A DNA stretch of 64,000 nucleotides from Nocardioides mangrovicus (lineage in GTDB: Bacteria; Actinomycetota; Actinomycetes; Propionibacteriales; Nocardioidaceae). Of this stretch, positions 4,351 to 6,356 are shown piece after piece. Position numbers and translations under genes: made by a program. Numbering within the stretch: the stretch's first letter is position 1; every line of letters starts with the position of its first letter. Location of the stretch: contig NZ_RDBE01000006.1 of NCBI RefSeq assembly GCF_003674065.1, positions 456,410 to 520,409 on the forward strand, given 5' to 3'. The notes under the pieces are model-generated. The model searched no databases and was not told where the DNA came from. It saw only the letters and a list, made by a program, of their open reading frames with translations.

Positions 4351-4835
4351 GGTGACTCCTGTTCGGTGAGGGCGTGCCGGAGCCGTTCCAGCGCGCGGGA
4401 GGTCTGGGACTTGACGGTGCCGGTGGAGCAGCCGAGGGTCTGAGCGGTCTCCTCGACGCTGAGGCCCTCGAAGTAGCGGAGCACCAGGACGGTGCGCTGG
4501 CCCGGCGGCAGTAGGCGGACGACGTCCAGCACGGTCGGGTCGGCGCCCGTCTCGACCGACACCGGCTCGGGCACGCCGTCCCACGCCGTCTCGACCGGAC
4601 GGCGCGAGAGGCCGCGCCAGCGGTCCTTGGCCAGGTTGACCAGCACGCGCCGGGCGTAGGCCTCCGGTGTCCGCCGGGCCGCACGCCAGCGGCGGGCGGT
4701 GCGGAGCAACGTCGTCTGCACCAGGTCCTCGGCGTGACCGCGGTCGCCGCACATCAGGTAGGCCGTGCGCAGCAGCCGGTCGGAGGAGCCGCGCACGAAC
4801 TCCTCGAACGCACGACGGTCGTGGCTGGCGATCAT
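4344..4835 (-). CDS. SigE-family ECF RNA polymerase sigma factor
   Basis: 163-aa sigma-70 family protein made of region 2 (about residues 8-75, 'FVRGSSDRLLRTAYLMCGDRGHAEDLVQTTLLRT') and region 4 (about 100-155, 'LPPGQRTVLVLRYFEGLSVEETAQTLGCSTGTVKSQTSRALERLR') without regions 1 or 3. This is the short size of the actinobacterial SigE family. The ATG at 4835 follows GGAG about 9 bases upstream. Its stop overlaps the start of the membrane-protein gene. The gene is divergent from the T-box leader of aspS2, so the two promoters share or overlap the gap 4836-4862. Confidence 0.9.
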   Translation of the reverse strand: MIASHDRRAFEEFVRGSSDRLLRTAYLMCGDRGHAEDLVQTTLLRTARRWRAARRTPEAYARRVLVNLAKDRWRGLSRRPVETAWDGVPEPVSVETGADPTVLDVVRLLPPGQRTVLVLRYFEGLSVEETAQTLGCSTGTVKSQTSRALERLRHALTEQESPC

Positions 4836-4862
4836 GCCTGGATAACTCCAAGGAATCCGATG

Positions 4863-5048
4863 GGGTTGTCGGCGGGCTCCGGATATCCTGCTGCCGGCTC
4901 GACGTGAGGCCTGACAACCCTCGCTGACGTCGGCCCGCGCGTCACGGCGTACCGACGAGAGGCCGATCCGATCCGGGTCGGCGAAGGTGTGGTGGCACCG
5001 CGATCTAGCCCCCGCCCACACCTCCAGGGCCCATGACTGGAGGTGGAG
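4863..5048 (+). promoter_or_regulatory. Translational T-box riboswitch leader of aspS2
   Basis: The T-box core GGTGGCACCGCG is at 4991-5002. The antisequestrator is complete: AGGTGTGG (4985-4992) pairs with CCACACCT (5016-5023), the bulge TGGCACC is 4993-4999, and the upper helix GCG/CGC is 5000-5002 with 5013-5015. The competing sequestrator ACCTCCAG (5020-5027) pairs with CTGGAGGT (5037-5044), burying the GGAGGTGGAG ribosome-binding site. Upstream candidates are Stem I (GGGTTGTC 4863-4870 with GACAACCC 4913-4920), Stem II (GTCGG 4929 / CCGAC 4952) and Stem III (GCCGA 4962 / TCGGC 4978). The bulge UGGC predicts a tRNA ending GCCA, i.e. discriminator G73, as in tRNA-Asp and tRNA-Asn. The specifier is not settled; GAC (Asp) at 4901-4903 is my best candidate. 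Uncharged tRNA should free the ribosome-binding site. Confidence 0.88.
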
Positions 5049-6356
5049 ATGACACGCACGTTGAACGACTCGCTCGCGCACGCCGAGCCCGGCTCGCAGG
5101 TCACCCTGCAGGGCTGGGTGCACCGGCGCCGAGAGCTGGCGTCGGTGACCTTCCTGGTGCTGCGCGACCGCACCGGGCTGGCGCAGGTCGTGGTCGCGCC
5201 GGGGACGCCGGTGCCGCCGGAGGAGACCACGGTGGAGGTCACCGGCACCGCGACGGCCAACCCGCAGGCGCCGGGTGGCGTGGAGGTGACCGCGCCGACG
5301 ATCACGTTGCTCACCGAGCCCGCCGAGACACCACCGGTGGAGCTGTGGCGACCGACGCTGGACACCTCGCTGCCGACGTTGCTCGACCACGCGCCGGTCA
5401 CCTGGCGCCACCCGGCGCAGCGGGCCCGGTGGGAGCTGGCCGCTGCCAGCCTGCGCGGCTTCCGGGCGACGCTCGACGCAGCGGGCTTCACCGAGGTGCA
5501 GTCGCCGAAGTTCGTGGAGTCGGCCACCGAGTCCGGCTCGAACGTGTTCGAGGTCGACTACTTCGGCCGGCCGGCGTACCTGGCGCAGAGCCCGCAGTTC
5601 TACAAGCAGCAGCTGGTAGGCGTCTTCGAGCGGGTCTACGAGGTCGGTCCGGTGTTCCGCGCGGAACCGCACGACACGGTGCGTCACCTGGCCGAGTACG
5701 TCTCGCTCGACGTCGAGCTGGGCTTCGTCCGCGACCACCGCGACGTGCTGGCGGTGCTGCGCGACGTCGTCGCCGGCATGGCCGACGGCGTGCGCCGCTG
5801 GGCCGCGGCGGCGATCAAGCGGCTCGGTGTCGAGGTGCCGGTCGTGCCCGAGGAGATCCCGGTGATCGGTTTCGCCGACGCGCTGCGACTGGTCGGCGCA
5901 CCCGAGGACGAGCCCGACCTGGCGCCGGAGCACGAGCGGGAGATCGGTGCCTGGGCGAAGGCGGAGCACGGCTCGGACCTGGTGGCGGTCGAGGGGTACC
6001 CGATGGCCAAGCGGCCGTTCTACACCCACCCGTGGTCTCGAGACGACGCCGCCGCGCCTCCTCGACCGACCGGCCATGCGGGCTGGTCGAACAGCTTCGA
6101 CCTGCTCTTCCGCGGGCTGGAGCTGGTCACCGGCGGCCAGCGGCTGCACCGGCCGGGCGACTACGACGCGGCGCTCCGGGCGCGCGGCGAGGACCCGGCG
6201 GACTACGCGGCCTACCTGCAGGCGTTCCGGCACGGCATGCCGCCGCACGGCGGGTTCGCGATCGGGCTGGAGCGCTGGACGGCACGGCTGGTGGAGGCGG
6301 CCAACGTGCGCGAGGTGACGCTGTTCCCGCGCGACCTGCACCGGCTGACGCCCTGA
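5049..6356 (+). CDS. aspS2: Archaeal-type aspartyl-tRNA synthetase (probably non-discriminating)
   Basis: Class IIb aminoacyl-tRNA synthetase, 435 aa, charging tRNA-Asp and possibly tRNA-Asn. An OB-fold anticodon-binding domain fills about residues 1-100 ('VTLQGWVHRRRE'). The catalytic core has 'YLAQSPQFYKQ', motif 2 'YEVGPVFRAEPHDTVRHLAEY', 'TGGQRLHR' and motif 3 'GMPPHGGFAIGLERW', ending 'REVTLFPRDLHRLTP'. It lacks the large insertion of the bacterial AspRS and matches the short archaeal form. ATG 5049 is chosen over GTG 5043 because GGAGG (5039-5043) is correctly spaced. Residues about 329-341 (WSRDDAAAPPRPT) are an in-frame extra segment encoded by the dispersed repeat. Expression is governed by the T-box leader. 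A standard bacterial AspRS is expected elsewhere in the genome. Confidence 0.85.
   Translation: MTRTLNDSLAHAEPGSQVTLQGWVHRRRELASVTFLVLRDRTGLAQVVVAPGTPVPPEETTVEVTGTATANPQAPGGVEVTAPTITLLTEPAETPPVELWRPTLDTSLPTLLDHAPVTWRHPAQRARWELAAASLRGFRATLDAAGFTEVQSPKFVESATESGSNVFEVDYFGRPAYLAQSPQFYKQQLVGVFERVYEVGPVFRAEPHDTVRHLAEYVSLDVELGFVRDHRDVLAVLRDVVAGMADGVRRWAAAAIKRLGVEVPVVPEEIPVIGFADALRLVGAPEDEPDLAPEHEREIGAWAKAEHGSDLVAVEGYPMAKRPFYTHPWSRDDAAAPPRPTGHAGWSNSFDLLFRGLELVTGGQRLHRPGDYDAALRARGEDPADYAAYLQAFRHGMPPHGGFAIGLERWTARLVEAANVREVTLFPRDLHRLTP
6033..6069. repeat. Dispersed repeat copy inside the aspS2 coding sequence
   Basis: GGTCTCGAGACG followed by a GC-rich core and CGCCTCCTCGACC matches the intergenic copy at 34460-34493 (GGTTTCGAGACGG...GCACCTCCTCAACC) at both ends. 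Here it is read in frame as WSRDDAAAPPRP, between 'FYTH' and 'SNSFDL', a point where archaeal relatives have a shorter connection. The reading frame is intact on both sides. Confidence 0.65.

Follow-up and report, generated by a model that had tools for sequence, protein, structure and literature searches.

Which signal controls the expression of aspS2, the gene (5049..6356, + strand) encoding an aspartyl-tRNA synthetase (AspRS) of 435 amino acids in the stretch of 64,000 nucleotides from a soil actinobacterium analysed here (the window)? A preliminary description of this DNA assigned the leader of the gene to the translational T-box riboswitches. As set out below, the leader very probably represents a T-box riboswitch of the translational type, which would sense uncharged tRNA-Asp and thereby control a second, archaeal-type AspRS.

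Elements of the aspS2 leader

All elements of the leader are located on the + strand. Direct reading of the sequence yielded the T-box core GGTGGCACCGCG at positions 4991-5002, as previously noted, and the coordinates given before for the antisequestrator proved to be correct. Its lower helix comprises the pair A4985-U5023 plus 7 further pairs (4985-4992/5016-5023), followed by the T-box bulge TGGCACC (4993-4999) and the upper helix GCG/CGC (5000-5002/5013-5015); the helices are conserved and covary. Upstream of these elements, the consensus fold of 26 leaders contains an ultrashort Stem I (GAGG 4906-4909/CCUC 4919-4922; 4906..4922) with a loop of 9 nucleotides, in which one pair changes from A-U to G-C on both sides in 8 of the 26 leaders. 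By inspection only, Stem I might be extended by pairing of positions 4900-4905 with 4927-4932. The specifier GAC (Asp) is located within the loop at positions 4913-4915. The consensus fold further indicates a small hairpin of 3 bp (CGC 4936-4938/GCG 4947-4949; 4936..4949) in the stem II to IIA/B region, approximately where IIA is expected, with one pair changing from C-G to U-A in 2/26 leaders; by analogy, this hairpin may correspond to stem IIA/B. A Stem II S-turn was looked for in the window leader and was not identified. Stem III (4962-4966/4978-4982; 4962..4982) displays both-sided changes at 3 of its 5 pairs, and an extension to 4969/4975 was noted by inspection.

A -10-like element, TATCCT, is present at 4884..4889. 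The corresponding motif TANNNT was found in 41 of 55 short-Stem-I leaders, every match being located at -32..-27 from the specifier; this tally leaves out 8 long-Stem-I and 6 Catellatospora leaders. A scan with the sigma-70 consensus found no promoter at the leader. The position of TANNNT would place the transcript start just 5′ of Stem I, and transcription is therefore expected to start near 4896, upstream of Stem I as well as of position 4991. Divergent from aspS2, the − strand encodes an ECF-type sigma factor (Sigma70_r2/r4) at positions 4353-4835.

Relatives of the leader and covariance models

The Rfam T-box model RF00230 yielded no match in the window, none at E ≤ 10 within 4800-5100, and none in the entire genome at E ≤ 0.001. 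The window leader thus falls below the gathering score of this model (93 bits), which marks a threshold of detection and not of anatomy, whereas the orthologous aspS2 leader L065 exceeds it with 94.4 bits. This aspS2 leader, the most classic T-box among them, stems from a metagenome bin labelled Chloroflexi, reflecting either horizontal transfer or misbinning. Over 296 genomes of the class, 148 match RF00230 at E ≤ 0.001, none over the cut-off. Inspection of 50 RF00230 loci revealed IleRS motifs downstream of 46 (26/26 and 20/20), an archaeal-type AspRS downstream of three (L136, L155, L158), and serS downstream of one (L146). In the genome of the window (G000), RF00230 detects no ileS T-box, while one is present in a genome of the same genus (G595); matches to a TGGT core in the own genome (L084, L086, L089) are not located before ileS, as judged by motif.

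Because RF00230 alone matched nothing in the window, models were built from relatives. Model R3 comprises 34 leaders, excluding the window, with a single Nocardioides-labelled row (L049, with a long Stem I). It assigned 79.1 bits (E 7.8e-15) to the window leader, the next match in the window reaching 15.3 bits. Presented with 13 Nocardioides loci, none of which was in the training set, R3 recovered every leader with at least 65.8 bits; L065 obtained 43.4 bits (E 7.6e-7), whereas four of five ileS loci scored only 16.7-20.9 bits. Model R2, built from 33 ileS leaders, likewise found the window leader as its best match in the window, though weakly (13.7 bits, E 0.087), and among 19 AspS2 loci it recovered 8 leaders at E ≤ 1, with L062 reaching the highest score (25.6 bits). 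Taken together, the scores obtained with R3, R2 and Rfam suggest that the aspS2 leaders are T-boxes well apart from those of ileS. Recognition by a covariance model, proposed as a check in the preliminary description, was hence obtained with the class-specific model and failed with RF00230. A further model, R1, run over 396 genomes of the phylum with stricter filters, returned 4 matches, namely the own leader, an aspS2 leader in G204, L125 in G307, and L127 in G191. The last of these, a weak match in which a T-rich hairpin tail lies behind the T-box core, was not used.

Relatives of AspS2 were found at 79 loci, mostly in Nocardioides and Promicromonospora and additionally in Catellatospora, Microbacterium, Nakamurella and others. 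Upstream regions were examined in 78 sequences, i.e., 77 loci and the window, leaving out L070 and L072, where the contigs start too near the gene. The T-box core is present upstream of aspS2 in 69 of them; the nine lacking it are L054, whose protein is 67% identical, and eight at ≤40% identity. A class-wide sample drawn by protein only, which identified aspS2 at E ≤ 1e-100 in 20 of 393 genomes, the own genome included, corroborated this association, with a T-box upstream of aspS2 in 19/20. The exception is L181, where the match covers residues 93-435 only. This locus (G400:C895) has no T-box just upstream; an RF00230 match lies approximately 3.5 kb upstream on the same contig.

From the 69 leaders, 42 entered alignment A1 and 26 alignment A2. 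Alignment A4, which underlies R3, has 34 rows, 22 taken from the 69 and 12 from later loci. The full set of 89 leaders consists of the 69, 18 leaders fetched by protein, L136 and the serS leader L146, with L125 and L127 left out. As this set holds near-duplicates (e.g., L165/L024 and L163/L009), counts over it do not represent independent events.

The predicted ligand, the competing helices and helix X

The specifier GAC in the Stem I loop is constant in 26/26 aligned leaders and complementary to the anticodon GUC of tRNA-Asp, and the gene downstream encodes an AspRS. We base the statement on this alignment, since a wider tally (83/89 leaders) employed a motif that contained GAC and is hence circular. 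The six leaders unmatched in that tally are L068 and L171 (GAC by eye), L146 (UCC), L170, L179 and L180, and four leaders with a long Stem I (L044, L049, L051, L062) read GAAGAC at the specifier by eye. The tRNA-Asp of the genome carries the anticodon GUC and G73, and the TGGC of the bulge is complementary to its GCCA 3′-end. TGGC is present in 87/89 leaders, in contrast to the ileS leaders, all 26 of which contain TGGT. Two aspS2 leaders, L067 and L176, contain TGGT as well, which would not match G73.

Besides tRNA-Asp, the preliminary description had considered tRNA-Asn. A T-box that reads tRNA-Asn, or both tRNAs, would suit an AspS2 of the type that also charges tRNA-Asn. In alignments, AspS2 shares H and P with 1n9w and 1wyd, in place of the W and K of the T. 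kodakarensis enzyme, at two positions that we take to decide discrimination. Moreover, the tRNA-Asn of the genome (U1-A72) likewise carries G73, and in the window AAC directly follows GAC. However, AAC is the next triplet in only 10 of 65 short-Stem-I leaders, so that the GACAAC of the window does not reflect conservation of two consecutive codons, whereas GAC itself is invariant in the aligned leaders. Due to this conservation of the specifier we rejected tRNA-Asn, which we consider quite improbable as a ligand, while the Asp part of the earlier proposal is upheld by both specifier and bulge. The evidence points to tRNA-Asp, and not tRNA-Asn or tRNA-Ile, as the predicted ligand.

Downstream of the antisequestrator, the proposed sequestrator 5020-5027/5037-5044 over the ribosome-binding site was recovered in the minimum-energy fold, where it extends to 9 bp (5019-5027/5037-5045; 5019..5045), with the Shine-Dalgarno (SD) sequence GGAGG (5039-5043) inside its 3′ strand. 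In the alignment of 42 leaders, 97.5% of the cells of the whole structure are paired, and 0/500 shuffles reached either this percentage or the covariation score. For the lower antisequestrator helix, pairing amounts to 99.7%, and 3/7 pairs show both-sided changes; the upper helix is without variation. In alignment A4, covariation of the antisequestrator was seen again, this time including 2 leaders in which an upper-helix pair has switched from C-G to G-C; further pair types did not stand out in number (132/500 shuffles). Since the 3′ sequestrator strand is wrongly placed for the window in A1, covariation of the sequestrator was scored per leader. For 20 distinct leaders, the complementarity of the own strands amounted to 17.15 compared to 13.72 ± 0.78 for swapped strands (0/5000 permutations). 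In 16/89 leaders, no SD-like string is contained in the best helix. Compensatory changes are thus present in orthologous aspS2 leaders, in line with the preliminary description.

Folding of the segment 4984-5053 without tRNA resulted in pair probabilities of 0.99-1.0 for the sequestrator and of at most 0.01 for the antisequestrator. As single elements, the 8-bp antisequestrator and the 8-bp sequestrator were calculated at -13.7 and -13.9 kcal/mol, respectively. In the model employed, which does not account for Stem III contacts, tRNA or pseudoknots, the best fold of the 70 nucleotides has -29.8 kcal/mol compared to -18.9 kcal/mol for the antisequestrator combined with a remnant of the sequestrator. 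The OFF state is therefore the predicted default, and the large difference calculated between the two folds would have to be made up by binding of the tRNA.

The two helices share bases 5020-5023, as described before. The mutual exclusivity ascribed to them, however, does not follow from this overlap, since a shared stretch of only 4 nucleotides would spare a sequestrator of 4-5 bp. Exclusivity may be completed by a further element that the preliminary description does not mention, termed helix X (GCCC 5008-5011/GGGC 5027-5030; 5008..5030), in which the antisequestrator loop pairs with bases just 3′ of the antisequestrator. At least 4 Watson-Crick pairs are possible in 86/89 leaders, in contrast to 4/26 ileS leaders and 21% of letter shuffles; the three leaders falling below 4 bp are L171, L176 and L065 (3 bp). 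Both-sided changes occur at 3 of the 4 pairs in the 42-leader alignment, and the lineages display different forms of the helix, i.e., GCCC/GGGC, ACCC/GGGT, CCCG/CGGG, CCCC/GGGG, CCCTT/AAGGG, CCCAAA/TTTGGG, TCCCTG/CAGGGA and CCCTC/GAGGG. As helix X was first noticed in the initial 69 leaders, the 18 leaders fetched later by protein provide a fairer test; it is present in 16 of these 18 (two near-duplicates of earlier leaders). Own complementarity exceeded swapped complementarity for 23 distinct leaders (13.52 versus 11.9 ± 0.46; 3/5000), whereas in the ileS control of 22 distinct leaders the own value was not above the swapped one (9.77 versus 10.83; 4942/5000). In fixed columns of A4 helix X is only 77.2% paired, because its register shifts.

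It could be argued that these pairings reflect chance complementarity, or a conserved protein-binding site, and not a switch. A high G+C content renders complementarity frequent, as illustrated by the letter-shuffled loops that form a 4-bp helix, and the whole leader of 191 nucleotides is not unusually stable (z -1.41). Given the compensatory changes, the fixed architecture, the agreement of specifier and bulge with the gene, and the R3 match to the window leader, we regard this explanation as hardly credible.

The location of the SD sequence inside the sequestrator, together with the scan of positions 4800-5150 that found no terminator-like site, supports a translational mode of control. For a Nocardioides genome, a survey gives only 30 predicted Rho-independent terminators (PMC2965389). 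Transcription attenuation by a terminator or Rho, with helix X as a part thereof, would be compatible with the retention of helix X in leaders whose best helix misses an SD-like string (e.g., L067, L170, L179). In view of the terminator scan, and of a sequestrator that pairs with the SD sequence in the window and covaries, such a mechanism appears improbable. The assignment as a translational T-box consequently stands; it is backed in addition by the compensatory changes, by the fitting specifier and bulge, and by the conservation of the leader in numerous genera of Actinobacteria.

How might translational control operate? In the window, helix X, the free nucleotides 5012-5018, the sequestrator (5019-5026/5038-5045) and the loop 5031-5037 would have the order and the lengths of an H-type pseudoknot, and helix X may thereby turn the OFF state into an SD pseudoknot. 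Uncharged tRNA-Asp would pair with GAC in Stem I via its anticodon GUC and with the TGGC of the bulge via its GCCA end. The antisequestrator, held by the bound tRNA, would take bases of the sequestrator and leave the SD sequence free. When tRNA-Asp is charged, the sequestrator would close over the SD sequence, and helix X would tie the sequestrator loop to bases of the antisequestrator loop, precluding translation. In L171 and L176, which lack helix X, the sequestrators seem by eye to overlap more of the 3′ strand of the antisequestrator.

Alternatively, helix X could act as a contact within the ON state, or belong to a third one. In Catellatospora, the helix X strand TTTGGG is also located within the 5′ strand of the best SD-pairing helix, so that both compete there, and the best nested fold of the window pairs 5008-5010 with the bulge and leaves helix X unused. 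By inspection, however, the antisequestrator and the 3′ strand of helix X are linked by only 2-5 nucleotides, presumably too few for an antisequestrator of approximately 10 bp. An ON-state pseudoknot was set aside on this geometric ground only, and we consider a role outside the OFF state somewhat unlikely.

AspS2, known systems and related switches

AspS2 matches NF003483 with 504 bits (cut-off 353), and its best solved match is T. thermophilus AspRS2 (1n9w), in agreement with the archaeal type proposed before. With TIGR00458 (aspS_nondisc) it obtained 308 bits, below the cut-off of 368. Based on its sequence, we classify AspS2 as an archaeal-type, non-discriminating-like AspRS. The own genome encodes a bacterial AspRS as well (L003, NF001750, 822 bits). 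A search with AspS2 against this genome at E ≤ 0.001 returned four matches, i.e., AspS2 itself, LysRS and two pieces of AspRS, with no AsnRS among these. A full-length or nearly full-length bacterial AspRS is found in 21/21 genomes, comprising the 20 sampled aspS2 genomes and G541. As it is present in all 20 sampled genomes, aspS2 is a second copy there, and the switch is tied to duplicated synthetases. AspS2 may step in as a backup upon failure of the housekeeping AspRS; if so, something must at times shut off the latter.

For a T-box that precedes an extra AspRS in Clostridium acetobutylicum, tRNA-Asn is reportedly the ligand and transcription the level of control. In this organism, extra AspRS/GatCAB genes are under T-box control (Saad 2012 and 2013, cited in PMC4206432), which resembles the present case in the link to a second AspRS and differs in being a system of the Firmicutes. 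Closer in design are the actinobacterial translational T-boxes of ileS (PMC1262725; N. farcinica and M. tuberculosis, PMC7583486), which share the short Stem I with the specifier in its loop, Stem III, the T-box bulge, the antisequestrator, and an SD sequestrator in place of a terminator. Unlike these, the aspS2 leaders carry the specifier GAC and not one for Ile, precede a second AspRS, and differ in bulge and helix X as shown above. In the accessible part of PMC1262725 (Seliverstov 2005), T-boxes in Actinobacteria are described before ileS only, and that of PMC3896937 mentions a doubtful hisD T-box in C. glutamicum and a specifier located in the hairpin loop of actinobacterial T-boxes. The class II search in PMC7778990 (section 12) covers Actinobacteria, and the aspS2 leaders may be listed there. 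In the titles, abstract starts and passages searched, including PMC10651847, we found neither an actinobacterial aspS2 or serS T-box nor a pseudoknotted sequestrator, which does not establish priority for either. Second synthetases are known as antibiotic shields for Ser, Ile and Trp (PMC9437257). The present case is similar in that a second synthetase stands beside a distant housekeeping enzyme and a SerRS gene (L146) is preceded by the same kind of switch; in contrast, the term T-box is absent from that review, and an antibiotic shield is solely a proposal for AspS2.

The same switch is found before other genes. L125 (− strand; T-box ~1700-1500, gene start 1438) contains GAC in Stem I, TGGC and GCCC/GGGC and scores 96.7 bits with R1. 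The gene behind it encodes a bacterial-type AspRS; no other AspRS was found in G307, and aspS2 was looked for there and not found. The switch thus goes with Asp and not with one enzyme type, and the idea that it guards spare synthetases has to be narrowed, as backup is not its only use. L146 (− strand; T-box ~1750-1500, serS 1440-148) carries UCC where the specifier is expected, a TGGC bulge, and CCCTC/GAGGG as helix X; its gene was identified as serS (TIGR00414, 362.6 bits), and the same genome contains another SerRS, 38% identical. As judged by these sequences, the switch goes with Asp or Ser, and guarding a second copy is common but not the sole arrangement. Asp, and in one genome Ser, would thereby join the actinobacterial translational T-boxes, with a form that Rfam does not detect in the genome of the window and whose expression platform contains an additional, conserved helix. 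We tentatively raise the possibility of a distinct branch of translational T-boxes, which would respond to tRNA-Asp or tRNA-Ser by means of an SD-sequestering pseudoknot in the OFF state. Most of its members would precede a second synthetase, as a circuit for emergencies or self-resistance, and some of them the only one. L136 (− strand; aspS 1466-147) has GAC and the same arrangement of T-box elements, and the gene that it precedes encodes a different archaeal-type AspRS. The genome harboring L136 also encodes a bacterial AspRS, which is 46% identical to that of the window genome.
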